Below the pieces are notes generated by a model that saw only the letters and a list, made by a program, of their open reading frames with translations, ran no database searches and was not told where the DNA came from. Below are positions 19,821 through 30,826 of a stretch of DNA of 64,000 nucleotides, piece by piece. Source of the DNA: Pyropia yezoensis (Eukaryota > Rhodophyta > Bangiophyceae > Bangiales > Bangiaceae); NCBI GenBank assembly GCA_009829735.1, contig CM020618.1:5888882-5952881 (forward strand), given 5' to 3'. A program made the position numbers and the translations under genes. Positions within the stretch are counted from its first letter, which is position 1. Each line of letters begins with the position of its first letter.

Positions 19821-21293
19821 GCGGGGCCCGAAAGTGTCTCAGACACAAAGCACAGGCTGTGAGCCCTCCCAATGATCGGAACCACAAGCGTGCCGGAAGC
19901 ACATCCCGGAAGCACGTTGTGGGGCACAACAGAATTACTCGGACACGAACGAATTAATATAGTTGCAGACACACTCAGACACGCCTGCAGAGTGGTCGGA
20001 AAAGCACTGTGTTTTTCCGCCAACTCTGAAGCACGCCTTGAGCATCCGACCTCCGACCAAGAGAGCAGATGAATGGCTCACAGCTTCTAGCGAAGATGTC
20101 TCCAAATATTTCCAGCCAACGGACGGCGTGCCCTTGCATTGGATGTAGCCTACAATGGGTGGTAAATTTTCCCGGGCGCGCACCACGAACGAACACGTGC
20201 GTGTGCTTTGTGCCTGGCCGTGAAGACCGCCCCGGTGCTCGGACACGAAAACACGGAGTTAACACTGTGTCTCGGCAGACACGTGCACTTTTCTGGCCGC
20301 CGTCGAGACGGGGCCTAAGCAGCAGCATCCATGCGATCCCATTTTGTTTGCGTCGGCAAGCGAGCTGTGGGGGGAGCCACCGCCAACGCCGTCGTGACCC
20401 TTCTCGAGTCCCCGCGGCTGTCGCTGAGGCGGCGCGCGTCGGTATCGATATGTAGTGCGCTTCGGGCGCGCACCCTGCTGGCGGTGCGCCCGGCTCGCCT
20501 CTGCATGCCCTTTTTCTATCCATCCACCACCCGACGGGCTCGCCCTGCCACGGTTCCCGCGTGCCGACGCCGGCCAGTGGCGGCGGCCGTGACACACACG
20601 GCGGGACCACCCCGCGGACGCGCCTCGGCCGATTTTGGCTAGTAGCAGTGTCGGTCAGCTACCGCGGCGGGTGGCGCCTGATGCACGCCATCTCCCTTTC
20701 CCCTCTCACTTCCCCCCCCCTTTCTCTCTACCGCGACGTGGGGGAGCCGGGGAGACCCACCGCGCGGCAAACGGGCGATTGATCGCACTGGGCCCTTGCC
20801 CCCCCCCCCCCTCTTCGCCCCTTTGCTTGCGCTTGCGCCGACAGCTTCTCCGCATTTCGGGTAGGTGGCGCGGCGAGCCGACTGTAGACGGTTGTTTTTG
20901 CTGACGGTCGGCGCGACGGGCCGGATCGGGGGGTGGTTGCCGACGGTCGGCCGGGCGCGGCCGGCGCGCCCCGTCCCTCGCGTTCGAGGGCCCCACCGCT
21001 GGGGCGTGCTGCCGAGGGGCCTGTGTCGTCACCCCCAGTCCTGTGGGGCGGGGCGAGGGGCACATGTAGGGCAAGATGATGGCTGGCGGCGGACAGGATT
21101 GGCCATATCAGTCCGGCTGCGTTTTTCCATCTGTCGCTCCAGGACGGGGTTGAGGTACGCCCGTTCTCTTTGCTTGCGCTCTCGCCGCCGTCTCTGCGGG
21201 CCGTCGCTGCTACTTTTCGCTGAAGCATCGACGCCATTGAGGCGGTCGTCGTGCTGTGTCCGGTCCCTGCGTGGGTCGCCTTTCCTGTGGGAG
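19821..21293. other. Intergenic, upstream of the Hint gene
   Basis: No supported gene. CGGACACGAA words at about 19938 and 20239 and several CACG-rich short inverted repeats suggest old element debris. A C/T-rich tract at about 20690-20740 may be part of the promoter or leader of the gene starting at 21294. Confidence 0.35.
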
Positions 21294-23621
21294 ATGGGGC
21301 GCGGTGACGACGAGTGGGGCGGTCTCCTCCCCGCGTCCACCCCGCCCGTACCGTACAGCTTGCGTCTGCTCCTCCTCGTGTATCTGCCGGCAGCGCTCGT
21401 GTCCGCTGCCGCCACTGCTGTGGACGTGGTGGTCCCCACCGGTACAGCCGTGGGCGTTGTCGTCCGCCCCGTCCCGGTGGCGCCTGTTACGTTTGACGAT
21501 GCCATCCGCTCCTTTGTGCAGACCCCCTCGTTGGTGGGCTTTTCTGGGTGCAAAGTCGACGCGTTCACCCACTTGGCCTACCAAGGCCCATATGATGGTT
21601 ACGCCCGCGTCACCGCGTCGGCCATGACCATGACGGCCGCCGCGGAGACCTGCTCCGCTGGAACCACCCTCCTTGTGCCGTCGGTGCTGCTGGACACCCC
21701 AGCAGACGCAGCTGCTCGGGGCCTGGACGGGGTGGCCGCCGCGCTCGCCGCCCTTGACGATCGCGGTGGCCGGCTGGTGGAGGCTATCCGCCAGTCAGAG
21801 GCGGGGCTGCTCATCGGCTACGAGGCCGCCGGTCGGGTGTGTGGGCTGGACGGGTGGATCCGCCTCGAGGCGGGCACCCTGTTTTTGATTGGCAAGGCCT
21901 CTGGACCGGCGGGGGTGACGCTGTTGGATCTCAACGTCCGCCTCGAGGGGGACCAATCGTTTATTGTGGTCATCGGCGAGCGCGGCGTGTGCCTCTACAC
22001 CGAGCCGCCAAAGCCGACTCAGACGCCGTCGCCAACGCCATCGCGGACGCCTACGCCGACGCCATCTCCATCCCCAACGCCGACGCCGGTACCGTCGCCG
22101 ACACAAACCGCGACGCCGTCACCATCACCCAGCCCAACCCCAAGCGCCACGCCAAGCGCTACGGCCACGCCTACTCTGGAGCCTACCGCGACGCCATCAC
22201 CGAGCGCCACGCCGAGCGCGACGCCGTCACCCTCACCCAGCCCAACCCCAAGCGCCACGCCAAGCGCCACGGCCACGCCTACTCTGGAGCCTACCGCGAC
22301 GCCATCGCAGAGCGCCACGCCGAGCGCGACGCCGTCACCATCACCCAGCCCAACCCCAAGCGCCACGCCAAGCGCCACGACTACGCCTACTCTGGAGCCT
22401 ACCGCGACGCCATCACAGAGCGCCACGCCGAGCGCGACGCCGTCACCATCACCCAGCCCAACCCCAAGCGCCACGCCAAGCGCCACGGCCACGCCTACTC
22501 TGGAGCCTACCGCGACGCCATCACAGAGCGCCACGCCGAGCGCGACGGCAAGTCCGACACTCGAGCCGGCGGCAAGTCCGACATCCGAGCCGACGGCGAG
22601 CGCAACCTCCGAGCCGACGGCATCGGTGACGCCAGAGCCAGTGCCTAGCGCGACCCCGTCTCCGTCTGCGGCGCCCGCTGATGCCCTGCCACCTGGCACG
22701 GAGGCGACTGTGTCGTCGGTCGCCCCAACTGGCGACGCTGGCGCCACCGGGGTCCCATCTGCTGCCCCGTCTGCGGAACCTCCCGCTCCCAATGCCGCAG
22801 TGACGCCGCCGGTGGCGCCAAGTCCAGAGGTGGACCCTGAAGCGACACCTTCCCCGTTCCCTCTTCCTTCTTCTCGCCCCACACCCGCCGCCTCTGCTGG
22901 TTCTGTGGTGGAGCCGGCGGCGGTGCCCACGGCGACCCCTGCTGACGAGCCCGAGGAGGGGTCGGCGTGCTTCCCCGCCTCTGCCACCGTCGAGCTGGCC
23001 GATGGATCTCTCGCAGCAGTCGGTGGGGGCTCCCTTACCGTGGGCACCACCGTTCGGACGTCAGCGTCGACGACCAGCGACGTGTTTGCGTGGTCGCACG
23101 CCACCCCAGGTGGGCTCTACCCGTTTGTTGCCATCACCACCGAGGCGGCTGTCCCAAGTAGCCCTTTCAACTTGACGAGCATGGTCGCCAGCCTGCGGGG
23201 CGCTCCGCTTCTCGTGTCCCCTGGCCACTACGTGTACGTGGGAGGGCGGCTGACCGCAGCGGATGCAGTGGTCGTCGGTGACTCTTTGACAGCCGGTGAC
23301 GGCAAGTCGCTGTTGGTGACTGGCGTAGCGCGGGTGACTGCTGCTGGTCTCTTCAACCCTCATACACTCGACGGTCGGATTGTCATCGACGGCGTGCTGG
23401 TGAGCTGCTACACGAGGGCGGTGCACCCATTGCTTGCCGAGGTGTTGCTGGCTCCCCTCCGTTGGGCCTACCTCGCCGCACGGTGGGCCGGCACGATGGA
23501 GCGTGCGGCCTTGCGGGCGGGGGTGAGGGAACGGGGGAGGTCTTGTACTGCTGCGAGGCTCCCCTCAGTCTCTTCTGTTTCTTTTGCTAGGCAGACGGGC
23601 GCGGAGTCTTGTCGAGTCTGA
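21294..23621 (+). CDS. Secreted Hedgehog-type Hint (Hog) domain protein with Pro/Thr/Ser repeats
   Basis: The protein is 775 aa. I start at ATG 21294 because a hydrophobic secretion signal follows directly ([20 protein letters not shown]). A ~220-residue N-terminal domain of unknown fold comes next. Then comes a ~330-residue mucin-like PTPSPSP/ATPS region, built partly from 36-residue repeats. The C-terminal ~200 residues are a Hint domain: [13 protein letters not shown] supplies the nucleophilic Cys, [12 protein letters not shown] is the TxxH-like block, and [11 protein letters not shown] then APLRWAY match the end of animal Hedgehog autoprocessing domains (GVLASCYA, APFRLAH). In Hedgehogs this domain cleaves itself from the N-terminal part and can transfer a sterol. 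Here cleavage before the Cys would release a glycosylated cell-wall or extracellular protein. No N-terminal Hedge signalling domain is visible. Confidence 0.85.
22113..22544 (+). repeat. Four in-frame 108-bp tandem repeats
   Basis: Units start at 22113, 22221, 22329 and 22437. Each encodes 36 residues of the Pro/Thr/Ser linker of the Hint protein. The units are nearly identical, so they expanded recently and copy number is probably variable between individuals. Confidence 0.9.
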
Positions 23622-24043: not shown

Positions 24044-26201
24044 ATGGCGCCCAAGCGCAAGCCCCCCCCCCCCCCTCCCGCTGCTACGTCCTCACCTACG
24101 AGGCGGGCAACGCCGCTGGCCGCACCGCCGCCCACCCGCTGGGGAGTTTCGACACCAAGGCCGCCGCGCTGCGCACTGCTGCTGCCGCCATGACCGACCG
24201 CTGCCCGTGGGGCGCCGCCTGGGCCGCCCCCGCTGGCTTTGACGTCCACATGGCCGCCCGCCGGGCGGCCGATTGCCCCGACGCGGGCACCGTCATCGAC
24301 GTGGTCGACCCGCTGGGCCTGTACAGCCGCGTGCGCATCGCGGTGGTTGAGGGGGGCGGGGGGGGAGGGGCGGGGGAGGGGGGGGGGCGCCAACCCCGCG
24401 CAAGCGGCCGGCGGTGGCAACAGCGACGGTGGTGGCGGGGGAGACGACGGCCGTCTCGGAGCCTGTCAAGAAGGGGGCCGGCGCGGGTGCCAAGGCGGCT
24501 CCGACGCGGCCGTCCAAGGCGGCGGCGGCACCGGCGGCACCGGCGCCGGCCGCCAAGAAAGCAGCTGCGCAGACGGCGCCCCGCGCCGCCCCCGTGCGGG
24601 CGGCCAGGGTGGCAGCGGCGGCGCCGACCAAGAAGAGAGCGGCGGCGGCGCCGTCGACGGCGGCGGCCAAAAAGGCGAAAACGGCCGCGGCTAAGGAGGA
24701 CGCTGCGGGAGCTGCCGCCGCGCGTGTGGTCGTGGCCAAGCCGACGACCGCCAAGATCAAAAAGGGAGCAGCAGCTCCTGCTAAAAAGGCGGCAGCGGCA
24801 CCTGCAAAGAAGGCGGCAGCGGTGCTTGCCGAGAAGGCGGCAGGGGCGCCTGCCAAGAAGGCCGTGGCGAAACCGACAAAGGCAGCTGCCGCCGCGCTGG
24901 CCTCCGCCACATCCACGTCGGCAACGACGGCAGCGGCCAAGAAGACTGCCGCCGTACGTGCCAAGAAGGCCACCACCGCTGCACCCCAGGCGGAACCCAC
25001 GGCTCTGGCGAGAAAGGCCACCACGGCACCAGCCAAGACGGTGGCCGGAGCAGCAGCCAGCAAGACGGCGGGGGGGACTGCCAAGGCCACCGCGGCACCG
25101 GCCAAGACGGTGGCTAGAGCAGCAGGCAACAAGACGGCGGGGGGGACTGCCAAAGCCGCCACGGCGGGGGCGGCGCGCTCAGGCGCGACGGCCGCGACAG
25201 CAGCAGCGGCAAGGGCGGATGCCACCGCCGCCCTCCCCCCCCGGGATGTGTACGTCCTCACCTATGAGGAGGGCAGCCACTACTCTCCACCTCGCACGAC
25301 GGTCGTCGGGGTGGTGGCGACGCGCACCGCTGCGCTGCGCGCCGCCGTGGCTGCCGCCCACGCACGCAGCTGCTTTGGCGATGACTGGACCGACACCGAC
25401 GCGTTTGAAACGCACGCGGTGGCCGCGACGGCGGGTGAAGTGACGGACGGCGCCACGCTGGTGGACGTGGCGGACCAAGAGGGCGACTACTTCCTTGTCC
25501 GCGTCCAGCAGGTGCGGGTGGACGCGGCAGTGTCGCGCCGGGCGCGGCAGGCAGACGCGGCGGTTGGTCCACCGGCCGCCCCGACCGGCACCGTGTACGT
25601 GCTGACGAGGGAGGAGGGGGACTCCTACTCGCCGCCCGTGTCGCGCGTCGTGGCAGTGGTGACGTCACCCGCGGCGGCGGTTGCCGCCGCGGCGGCGGCC
25701 ATGGCCGGCTCCCCCTACGTGGGCGGCTTTTGGGACGACCACGACAGCCGCGCGGAGCGCGTCAAGCCGGCGACGCGGCGCGTACGGGACGGCGGGACGG
25801 TCGCGCGCGCCGACAGCGGCAACGGCGTCTTTGCCCGCGTGTGGGTGCAGGTGTGCACCCCAGCGGGTGCAGCCGCCGCCGCGGCGGCCGGCGCGGCCGC
25901 CGCTGCGGCAGCCGGCGCTGCTGCCACCGGCGTCGCGTCAGCGGGGCGGTCTGGCGGGTGGGCGGCGGCCCCCGCGCCGGGCGCGGCAGCCGCCGTCATG
26001 AACGCGCAGGTGGCGGGGACAACCCCCCCCTTGAGCTCTGGCGCTTCGTCTGCGGCGTCCTCGTCCTCGTCCTCGTCGTCTGGAGCACCCTGGGGGGGGA
26101 TGGGGGGGGGGGGGTGGGGCAAGCAGACCGCCCGCAAGACCACCACCCGGTCACGCCCGCCACCGCGGCGGGTGTCCGAGCCGGGGTGGGACCCGGTGGG
26201 G

Positions 26202-26255
<54 letters not shown>

Positions 26256-26336
26256 GCCGCCGCCGCGGCGGCGCCGGCGGCGCGGGCTCGCGGCGGCGGG
26301 GCGCGCACCAAGCAGACGGCCCGCAAGAGCAGCTAG
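24044..26336 (+). CDS. Histone-H1-like protein with three copies of an unknown domain and a histone H3 tail mimic at its C-terminus
   Basis: The start ATG gives MAPKRKPPPP. A 14-C run (24062-24075) and G runs at about 24353-24388 each shift the frame by one base, so the gene is read in three pieces; run-length error is the likely cause. Domain copy 1 (YVLTYEAG to about 24350) is followed by a long Lys/Ala-rich segment with repeated APAKKAAA units, like the tail of linker histone H1. Domain copies 2 (DVYVLTYEEGSHYSPP) and 3 (TVYVLTREEGDSYSPP) follow, about 95 residues each; I do not recognise this domain. After a poly-Ala linker the last residues are ARTKQTARKSS, identical in ten positions to the start of histone H3. 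An earlier partial copy, KQTARKTT, lies at 26121. The composition implies a DNA-binding chromatin protein in the nucleus; the role of the mimic is inference. Confidence 0.7.
25021..25158 (+). repeat. Two 69-bp in-frame repeats in the Lys/Ala region
   Basis: Tandem units 25021-25089 and 25090-25158 encode 23-residue copies around APAKTVA and KTAGGTAKA. They differ at only a few bases. Such duplications lengthen the basic H1-like tail. Confidence 0.75.
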
Positions 26337-26396
26337 TCGCGCCCGCCGCCGCGGCGGGTTGCCGAGCCCGGGTGGGATCCGGCGGGCCCCACTGAC
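26337..26396 (+). pseudogene. Post-stop remnant of the duplicated tail module
   Basis: Directly after the TAG at 26334-26336, and in the same frame, the sequence reads SRPPPRRVAEPGWDPAGPH and a stop. It copies SRPPPRRVSEPGWDPVG at 26151-26204. A 186-189-bp module (KQTARK plus SRPPPRR) was therefore duplicated, and the second copy now stops right after the H3-like residues. Confidence 0.65.
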
Positions 26397-27673: not shown

Positions 27674-29426
27674 TCATGCCCCCGCTGCAAAATGATAATC
27701 TGTTCCCTTTCGGGCCAGCCGCTCTGCCGCGTACTCTCCGAGCATGTAGACCGACGCCATGGACCCCGCCGACGGGGTCATGGACGGGATGGCCGACGCT
27801 TCGACGACGTGCAGGCGGCCCACCCCCCGGACGCGGAGCCCCCCGTCGAGGACCCGCCCGACGCCACAGCCGCCCACCATGTGCTGCGTCGTGCCCGTGG
27901 TGGCGCGCACAAACGCGTCGTCGACGGGCGCCCCACCGGCGGGCGCCACGGGGGTCATCCCAAAGGCGGGGGGAAACGCGCGGGTGACGGCCTGGAGGGT
28001 GCGCATGCAGGCGCCGAGCGTCGCCACCTCCCCAGCGTCGGCGAGCAGGTTGGGCGCCACGACGGGCGCCGCCGTCGGGTCGTTGCCCGGCGGCAGCGTC
28101 AGGGTGGCCGTCGACGTGGGGTTGGACAGGCACGCCGAGATGTACTCTCGGCGCCCCGGCGGCGACCGTAGTGGCACAAACCCAAAGACCAGGTACGAGC
28201 CGCTGCCACTGCGCTCGCGGCCCAGCCCGGCGGCGGCCGACGTGCCCAGCACCCCCCCACGGCCCGCCCGCCACTGGGCGAACGCCTCTGGCGAGCGGAG
28301 GAGCGTCACGTTGTTGACCTTGGCGAGAGGCAACCCGCCATACTCTGCGTCCACCTGCCCATACGGGCGGGTCTGCATGCGGGTGCCAACGGGGAGGTCC
28401 ACCGCAACGGGGATGCCCGCCGCCCGCAACGCGCCGGCGGGGCCGACGCCCGAACGGAGGAGCAGCACCGGCGAGCCGTACGGGCCCGCCGCGGAAATGA
28501 CCGCCCGAGTGGCACGGAGGGTGGACCGCCGGCCGCGGCCACCGCCAGGGGGGGACGCCCCCCGGTGGCCGCCCAGGTACTCGACGCCCACCGCCACCAG
28601 GCGGCGGCGGCGGCGGCTCTGGTGGCGGCCGCCGCGGCGGGCGAGGAGCACCCGCGTGACCGTCACGCCCTGCCGCACCTCCAGATTGGCCCCGCATGGC
28701 CCCGCCACCACTGGCGCCACGTACGCGCTGCACGCGTCGGCGCGGCGGCCGGCAGCGTCGGCGGCCAGCCGGTGCACCCACACCCCCTTTTGGGGCTGCC
28801 GCCCGAGTGCCGCTCAATCGTCCACGGTGGGCAGCCCCGCACGGCGGGCGGCGGCCAGCCACTCGTCTGTATAGTCTTGCCACAGTCGCCGGGGCGGGGT
28901 GGCCACCCCCAGCGTCCGCGCCGCGCGGTCATAGTACCGCCCTGCGGTGGAGGCGTTGAGGCCCGTCACCCCCCACCCGCCGACGGGGTCACCGCGCCCC
29001 ACCGGCAGCGTCCATTGGCCCAGGTTGATCAGGCTCGTCCCGCCCAGGGAGGCGCCCGTCAGGAGCAGCAGCCGCCGCCCGTCGACGCCCGCTGACGGGG
29101 CGCCGGTCATGACTTGCGTGAGGGACGGCACTGGCCAGGTGGCGGTGTTGAGCCGCATCGCCCGCACCAGCAGCTCTTCGGTATCGTTGCGGGGGGCGCC
29201 CCGCTCCAGCACTACCACCCGTGCGTGGGGGAGGGCGGTGCACAGGCGGGCGGCGAGGGTGCTCCCGGCCGTGCCGCCGCCGACAATGACAAAGTCGGCC
29301 GCGTCGTCGGCAGGGGGGGGGGGGGGGGGGGGGGGGGGGAGGGCTCGCCGCCGTGACGACGCCGGCGCCAGAGGCAGCGATGAGGAGGGGGAGGAGCGCC
29401 ACCAAGGCCGAGGAGAGGCGAGCCAT
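27674..29426 (-). CDS. GMC-family FAD-dependent oxidoreductase, secreted, with an in-frame TGA
   Basis: A signal peptide (MARLSSALVALLPLLIAASG, start at 29426) and a poly-Pro tract lead into the FAD-binding fingerprint DFVIVGGGTAGSTLAARL. GMC signature 1 (LGGTSLINLGQW) and signature 2 (AAGPYGSPVLLLRSGVGP) are present, as is the C-terminal TQHMVGGCGVG block with the catalytic His. The total of about 584 codons is typical. Two breaks are visible. A 27-G run (29313-29339) separates the signal peptide frame from the domain frame. An in-frame TGA (28814-28816) interrupts the protein about one third of the way in, with good coding on both sides. The usual Asn near the end (S/G-G-N) is replaced (SAGSMAS). 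Substrate unknown; relatives oxidise alcohols or sugars. It may be a young pseudogene. Confidence 0.75.
29313..29339. repeat. 27-nt poly-G tract inside the GMC gene
   Basis: An uninterrupted G run encodes poly-Pro on the minus strand. The tract is a likely assembly-length error or a slippage hotspot, and it explains the frame change after the signal peptide. Confidence 0.8.
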
Positions 29427-30826
29427 CCTCTGGGTACCCGCTGCGGAAATGCACCCGCCGTTCGCGGCTGGGGCCGCACGAGAGGGGGGGGTTCACGGCT
29501 GGAAGCGGTCCGCACCCCGCCCGAGAGAGGCCCAAAAACGCGCACAAGAGGCCCGCGCGGCCGTGGTCCCCGCCCGTCACGCACGGCGGGCATGTCGCGC
29601 ACGACGGGGGGGGGACTGCAGCCACGGGACGCCCTCCTTGGAGGGGCACGTCTTCGACAAATGAGAAAAGGCAAAGCCGAGAGTGTGGCTGGCCAACAAG
29701 ATCCAGCGCAGAGGCGGCGTGACCTCGGGAGCCCTCGTCCCCGACTCGTGGGCGGCGGGCGGGCGCGACCGGGAGGCTGCACCCCGCCATCTAGCTAGCA
29801 CGCAGCAGAATCGAGTGGAGGGGCAACGGCGGCTCAAGGGAGGGGGTCTGTCTGGGCCACGGGGCGGCTGGCCCGTACCTCACATGCCGAGTACAGTACA
29901 GTACTGTACATAGCGGCACACCCAGACCCTCGGAGCACGCGCACCCATCCTGCACTGAAGTGCTGGTGCACCGAAGGGGGAGGCTGCAGCTCCCCACCTT
30001 AAATTCTAGTACCTCCACGTGCCGTCCGGACGAATGGAGAACAGGAAAAAAATGTCTCTCTCTATCTCGCCCGCCCCCCACGGCTCGGGGGTTCCTCCTT
30101 GTACTGTACAGTATACCCTCGATAGAGCGGGCGGGGAGCAGGAGAATGTGCCGTCGCCGCGCCCTCTACCCGCTTCCCCCCACACCCCGCCCTCTCTTCC
30201 CCCCCCCCCCCCCCCCCCGCCGTGGGGGGAGGCCCAGGGTGCCCTCGCTCCCCCCCCCTCCGCTCTCTCAGCCCTCGCTGGGGCCTCTCCTACCGCCTCG
30301 CCGCACCCGTCGCCGGTCCGCGTGCCACAGCGCCACCTCCATGTCAGCCGTCCATGACCTACCAGAGCCCTCCACCTTAGGGAGCACAGGGTCGGCCAAG
30401 CTGCCACGGCTGCACGACCGCGCCGGCCAGGAGCCCCCTGCCTTCCCGCACCCCCCCATTGATGGAAGATGGTCCGCCCGGTAACCCGACACGGCCGCAC
30501 CGCCGTGCTTCCCCTTGACCGCCCCGCTTGCCGTCCGTGTCCAACCCCACAACGACCGCCCACTCGCCGGCCCCCAGCGATAGCACGGCGCCCGCGCCGC
30601 TCGTCGTCCTCCCTCGTTCTCCCGGCATCCTCCCCGTCCAACGACCCGTCCTCTGCGCGGTCCGACTGAAGTCTCTGCTCCAGCCCGCTTGGCGAAAAGT
30701 GGATGGGTCCCCTGGGGTGTGCTTCCGCCAGGGGGAGGGGAAATTTCCCCACAAGGGACAACTACCCCTCCAGCTCGATCAGAGTCCTCGACGCGCCCAG
30801 CGCCCGGAAGTCCTTGTCCTCCGTTC
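29427..30826. other. Intergenic region with palindromic GTACAGTACTGTAC motifs
   Basis: No gene supported. A perfect 14-bp palindrome GTACAGTACTGTAC (29896-29909) lies about 470 bp upstream of the GMC start, and TACTGTACAGTA (30102-30113) lies further upstream. A poly-C tract at about 30200-30218 is also present. The palindromes are candidate regulatory sites. Confidence 0.4.

Follow-up and report, generated by a model that had tools for sequence, protein, structure and literature searches.

The gene and its features

The window analysed here is a stretch of 64,000 nucleotides from the red alga Pyropia yezoensis; on its forward strand it contains an open frame of 661 codons, stop to stop (24351-26336). 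This frame ends with ARTKQTARKSS (26301-26333), followed by TAG (26334-26336). The first ten residues of the peptide are identical to residues 1-10 of histone H3 as encoded by four H3 genes of the same genome (C1 at 2.075, 2.083, 39.753 and 39.861 Mb). A second KQTARK, not preceded by ART, lies exactly 189 bp upstream in the same frame (26121-26138). The initial annotation had reported both the C-terminal match to H3 and the upstream copy, and both are present. The genome examined comprises 107.48 Mb in 11 contigs, three of which are large (43.6, 34.3 and 29.4 Mb); the report on the published assembly describes PacBio sequencing, 65% GC and three chromosome scaffolds of 29.4, 34.3 and 43.6 Mbp (PMC7423979). 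The gene has the following features.

24044..24078, forward strand: putative start MAPKRK..., with the ATG at 24044, then a 14-C homopolymer (24062-24075) with a frame break
24079..24357, forward strand: domain copy 1, CYVLTYEAGN...RVRIAVVEGG, not in frame with the rest of the gene; 35-38% identity to copy 2
about 24414..25225, forward strand: Lys/Ala-rich arm; limits drawn by eye, likeness to linker-histone tails in composition only
25239..25532, forward strand: domain copy 2, predicted alpha/beta fold
25590..25868, forward strand: domain copy 3; 38-40% identity to copy 2
25869..26120, forward strand: Ala/Ser/Gly-rich linker, containing runs of eight G (26092-26099) and thirteen G (26102-26114)
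26121..26201, forward strand: motif repeat copy 1, KQTARKTTTRSRPPPRRVSEPGWDPVG
26202..26300, forward strand: linker between the motif repeat copies, GCC-repeat poly-Ala and Arg/Gly
26301..26333, forward strand: motif ARTKQTARKSS, first ten residues equal to H3 1-10
26334..26336, forward strand: TAG stop; the aligned codon of copy 1 is CGG (Arg)
26337..26387, forward strand: remainder of motif repeat copy 2, beyond the stop and still in frame, SRPPPRRVAEPGWDPAG (repeat D9, 81%)

The C-terminal peptide of the 661-codon frame, which carries the motif, reads GGARTKQTARKSS. There is no histone fold C-terminal to the motif; the 661-residue frame contains no Pfam family and the sequence downstream is unlike H3. 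Measured against the H3 genes of its own genome, ARTKQTARKS is a match to the H3 tail in a protein that is not H3.

A ~95-residue domain in three copies and an H1-like Lys/Ala-rich segment had also been attributed to the protein. All three domain copies are present; the first lies outside the 661-codon frame. The Lys/Ala-rich segment (24414-25225) is present as well, but its likeness to H1 is compositional. A long Lys/Ala-rich arm is common to linker histone H1 (PF00538) and the algal protein; they differ in the globular domain. The 661-residue frame has no Pfam match at E <= 1, and the globular (winged-helix) domain of PF00538 was not found in this frame or in the two related proteins, P0001 and P0002. 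A separate canonical linker histone is encoded at C1:17363907-17364092.

The MAPKRK start, domain 1 and the remainder of the protein are in three different frames. The frame breaks at the 14-C homopolymer and again after domain copy 1, in a G-rich stretch with G runs at 24358-24365 and 24378-24387. A paralogue of the same architecture (C1:14320096-14322606) is encoded in one frame; both it and P0001 read the start region as MAPKRKAPHPTHRPRYCLTYEAG without a break. Since the paralogue is unbroken at these sites, homopolymer lengths in the gene appear to be either wrong in the assembly or truly altered. Runs of eight and thirteen G also directly precede the motif repeat, so the continuity of frame from domain 3 into the tail depends solely on the assembly.

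Domain copy 2 is predicted to adopt an alpha/beta fold (mean pLDDT 94.5, pTM 0.85, from a 7-sequence alignment). Nothing convincing was found for it in Pfam, NCBIfam, PHROGs, PDB sequence or PDB fold searches; a weak PDB sequence match was 8z11 PsaR (E 0.052). A similar predicted fold is seen in small phage and giant-virus proteins of unknown function in BFVD (probability 0.98-1.00 and query TM ~0.4-0.6 in the best ten rows). These proteins differ in sequence (10-18% identity in the same rows, none at E <= 0.001) and none of the best ten rows names a function. Single-domain relatives are encoded at C3:14989347, 15061435, 11159920 and 11294742 (L030, L031, L032 and L035). L030 and L031 have identical match scores and each has an in-frame TGA, in L031 by the match only; they may be decaying copies.

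Other open frames lie on either side of the gene in the window. Upstream, a 918-codon open frame (20865-23621, forward strand) combines long Pro/Thr/Ser-rich repeats with a Hint module (PF01079, E 1.2e-15). Downstream, frames on the reverse strand (27674-29794) resemble by eye an FAD-dependent GMC oxidoreductase split over several frames.

Relatives of the gene and the repeat behind the stop

The protein searches returned two proteins only, P0001 and P0002; two of these searches scored only the ~8,000 candidates with the most shared words, so orthologues may be missed. P0001 represents the paralogue in other assemblies and lacks the motif. In the genome examined, the paralogue aligns up to ...GGWG and ends with CSSSSGGQCWGATHY, again without the motif; no KQTARK-like match was seen when its 3' end and the flank were read in three sense frames. 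P0002 (281 residues, 75-77% identity) comes from one 1183-base contig and is the sole orthologue found. Its sequence aligns with domains 2 and 3 and with the linker up to ...PWGG, where it ends, either through a stop codon or because the contig runs out; this point precedes the first KQTARK by six residues and ARTKQTARKSS by 66. The initial annotation had proposed conservation in homologues as a check and had taken homologues lacking the motif as evidence against it. This evidence is found in the paralogue; the orthologue stops upstream of the site.

Searches beyond these proteins gave no relatives. There was no match in plasmids ('near' mode), and 592 stretches in prokaryote contigs and 45 in viral contigs fitted the pattern, none of which was confirmed.

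The repeat does not end with the motif. Copy 1 is laid out as KQTARK-TTTR-SRPPPRRVSEPGWDPVG (26121-26201) and copy 2 as KQTARK-SS-stop-SRPPPRRVAEPGWDPAG (26310-26387); the continuation past the stop was overlooked in the first reading of the sequence. Because the repeat runs on in frame behind TAG, the C-terminal position of the motif may be recent, and the layout suggests that the motif was formerly internal.

Differences between the copies are mostly silent. Over the 69 bases of KQTARK and the part behind the stop, a comparison that leaves out the gapped middle codons, there are nine differences and two of them change an amino acid (P 0.002-0.003). When nine changes were placed at random in 20,000 trials, 5.9 codons were altered on average, and two or fewer in 0.2-0.3% of trials. 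Within KQTARK the single difference is silent; in the part behind the stop alone, two of eight differences change an amino acid (P 0.012). The result is weaker with other choices of codons. If the two Thr/Ser codons are added, the count is four amino-acid changes in 11 differences (P 0.025); including the Arg/stop codon too, which brings in all of the gapped middle codons, makes it five in 13 (P 0.028). Given this coding-type change (P 0.002 to 0.03 by the codons counted), the frame of the motif was probably translated, including the part that is now behind the stop; the numbers are small.

When the 30-residue repeat was used to query the genome, significance was reached only at this locus; of four matches at E <= 10, two were the copies described here and the others had E values of 1.0 and 1.8. 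A module shared by several genes was rejected on this basis.

The motif in the genome and candidate H3-tail machinery

In an order-2 Markov model of the window, ARTKQTARKS is expected 9e-8 times in the window and 1.5e-4 times per genome in six frames. From the composition of the protein itself, with the last 74 residues left out, 7.5e-9 occurrences are expected. For KQTARK by itself, the genome-wide expectation is 2.2. These expectations treat the motif as fixed beforehand. Other motifs in other windows could have been noticed, so the effective odds against chance are weaker than those computed. Given a motif taken in advance, a match by chance is unlikely; the H3-like tail is a real, non-random observation.

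A degenerate KQTARK pattern matched 19 times in the whole genome, as tallied by eye: in the four H3 genes, twice in this gene, in 11 copies of one repeated element, at one unrelated site and at one KQTASK. The copies of the repeated element read LKQTARK(E/K)RT. Outside the four H3 genes, ARTKQTARKS was found in this gene only. At the DNA level the motif agrees with the four H3 genes at 23-25 of 30 bases; random synonymous recoding gives 24.6 +/- 1.7. A recently copied fragment of an H3 gene is unsupported, since the agreement is at the level of random recoding and the sequence downstream is unlike H3.

Proteins that could act on an H3 tail are encoded in the genome, which has 36 SET-domain matches. 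A Pfam scan covered eight of the nine strongest SET loci (L053-L060) and the weaker L062. AWS was found in L054 and L057, CXC in L056 and a sub-threshold FYRN in L055 (22.8 vs 24 bits); the other five gave SET alone. One of the five, L053, ends by eye like SET1-type proteins. We take AWS, CXC and FYRN together with SET to point to K36-, K27- and K4-type enzymes, respectively. Pre-SET gave no match at E <= 1 in the genome; the controls were likewise without a match.

Open frames with a chromodomain are abundant in the genome. The best 150 of 2351 chromodomain candidates were scored and all 150 were over the cut-off. Twelve loci were fetched, nine of which were read in the right orientation; by eye, five of these nine (L043, L047, L049, L050 and L051) resemble retroelement integrases. 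Chromo-shadow gave no match over the cut-off in the genome. The genome scan thus gives no positive support to an animal-type circuit of K9 readers and writers, although an HP1 gene may lie among the lower-ranked chromodomain candidates. K4-type machinery would be at least as good a candidate as K9-type, and K4-type writers have the better support. Many H3K4 readers of the PHD type require a free N-terminus. The WIN pocket of WDR5 also takes Ala-Arg motifs that are internal, which makes binding of GGARTKQT to a WDR5-like protein conceivable.

Some of the SET matches and the repeated element recur together. Five of the 36 SET matches (L062, L063, L066, L067 and L070) are weak ones in 268-aa frames, located at C1:12708538, 12713073 and 41528219 and at C2:30763443 and 31120917. 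A SET-type frame lies within ~17 kb of an LKQTARK(E/K)RT copy at four places (copies at C1:12722440, C1:41511878, C2:6076581 and C2:31111573); one of these frames, at C2:6091288, has 293 aa. This recurrence suggests a mobile element that carries a SET-domain gene.

Possible mimicry of the H3 tail

Histone mimicry in general is established. EHMT1/2 substrates such as WIZ and LIG1 have a shorter match to H3 than the algal protein has. In influenza A H3N2, the C-terminal ARSK of NS1 is recognised by PAF1C and Chd1 (PMC10208167). As in the algal protein, residues resembling the H3 N-terminus are located at the C-terminus of an unrelated protein; the viral match has four residues and reported binding, whereas the algal one has ten identical residues in a cellular protein and putative binding. 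Non-histone proteins with a K9-like ARK core include WIZ and LIG1, which are methylated by EHMT1/2 via histone mimicry (PMC10611923), and ADNP, where ARKS matters for localisation (PMC3022755). ADNP matches H3 only at ARKS, while the algal match extends back to H3 residue 1, K4 site included. ADNP is also a caution for claims based on a motif, as the methylated form of its ARKS peptide failed to bind HP1 (PMC3022755). Such claims are open to dispute: in the nucleus, SARS-CoV-2 ORF8 was reported not to work as a histone mimic (PMC10833455). Among titles and abstract openings on histone mimicry and Pyropia chromatin, a set outside which most subscription journals lie, no report of an algal H3-tail mimic motif was found.

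Functional mimicry of the H3 tail, specific to this lineage and carried on a basic protein, is plausible, if with somewhat less than an even chance. The gene product would be a basic protein of a small family, with three alpha/beta domains and a Lys/Ala-rich arm; it is probably nuclear, and the arm would bind nucleic acid. One of the two paralogues of this architecture carries, as assembled, a low-complexity, internally duplicated C-terminal extension with the H3 1-10 peptide. This peptide would act as a short linear motif within a flexible tail, accepted in place of H3 by proteins that act on the H3 tail. Candidate partners are a lysine methyltransferase, of the SET1/ATX K4 type or another, an acetyltransferase, or any reader able to bind a site that is internal or C-terminal. 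Once modified and bound, the tail could tether such proteins to the chromatin occupied by the arm, or divert them from it. The exact identity over ten residues, the constraint on the repeat copies, the Lys/Ala-rich arm, the SET proteins and the influenza precedent count in favour of mimicry. The motif-free paralogue, the end of P0002, the weaker P values with other codon choices and the upstream homopolymers count against it.

An incidental peptide is about as likely as mimicry, and it too falls a little short of an even chance. A translated tail rich in Ala, Arg, Lys and Thr, driven by GC and prone to slippage, would have spelled the H3 peptide by accident and then been duplicated, with no link to H3 machinery. 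This is consistent with the absence of the motif from the paralogue and with the low complexity of the tail (GCC repeats, poly-Ala, poly-Ser and G runs). The coding-type pattern is not confined to KQTARK but extends into the part behind the stop; because SRPPPRRVxEPGWDP is also constrained, selection need not concern likeness to H3. In addition, many motifs in many windows could catch the eye, which weakens the genome-wide expectation of 1.5e-4. Composition alone nevertheless gives only 7.5e-9 for the 10-mer in the protein, and the two copies of KQTARK differ by a single silent change. It is also possible, at a somewhat lower likelihood, that the stop is a recent truncation or an error, in which case the motif would be internal, within a ~30-residue module that occurs twice, KQTARK...SRPPPRRVxEPGWDP, and any function would belong to the whole module. 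The 17 codons by which copy 2 continues in frame after TAG, with two of eight differences changing an amino acid (P 0.012), point in this direction; the small numbers, and a copy 1 without ART before KQTARK, do not. A truncated module is compatible with either mimicry or an accidental match, and its likelihood overlaps with theirs and with that of a tail outside the protein.

That the tail is not part of the protein at all is unlikely. It would then be out of frame with the domains, due to a wrong or polymorphic length of the G runs at 26092-26114 or to decay of the gene. The frame already breaks at the 14-C homopolymer (24062-24075) and in the G-rich stretch (24358-24387), where the paralogue stays in one frame; the published assembly derives from PacBio sequencing (PMC7423979), and the alignments of both relatives end at or just past the G runs. 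Coding-type change in the tail's own frame (P 0.002 to 0.03 by the codons counted) argues against this explanation. As assembled, moreover, the tail is in frame with domains 2 and 3, which align to P0002 up to the G run.

The strongest form of mimicry is also the most doubtful. Here the multicellular red alga would carry, on the tail of a Lys/Ala-rich chromatin protein, a full replica of H3 1-10 that offers K4-like and K9-like sites without a free N-terminus. Histone-modifying enzymes would write on it; the result would be a movable, nucleosome-independent H3 tail that tethers or titrates them.

H3 antibodies serve for ChIP in Pyropia yezoensis (PMC10181236). Even if the peptide is incidental, provided that it is translated, antibodies against the H3 N-terminal peptide could cross-react with the algal protein. 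If the mimicry is real, the match to the H3 tail would be unusually long for a cellular protein. It would separate, in nature, the sequence of H3 from its free N-terminus, and would test which readers of H3 need the free end.
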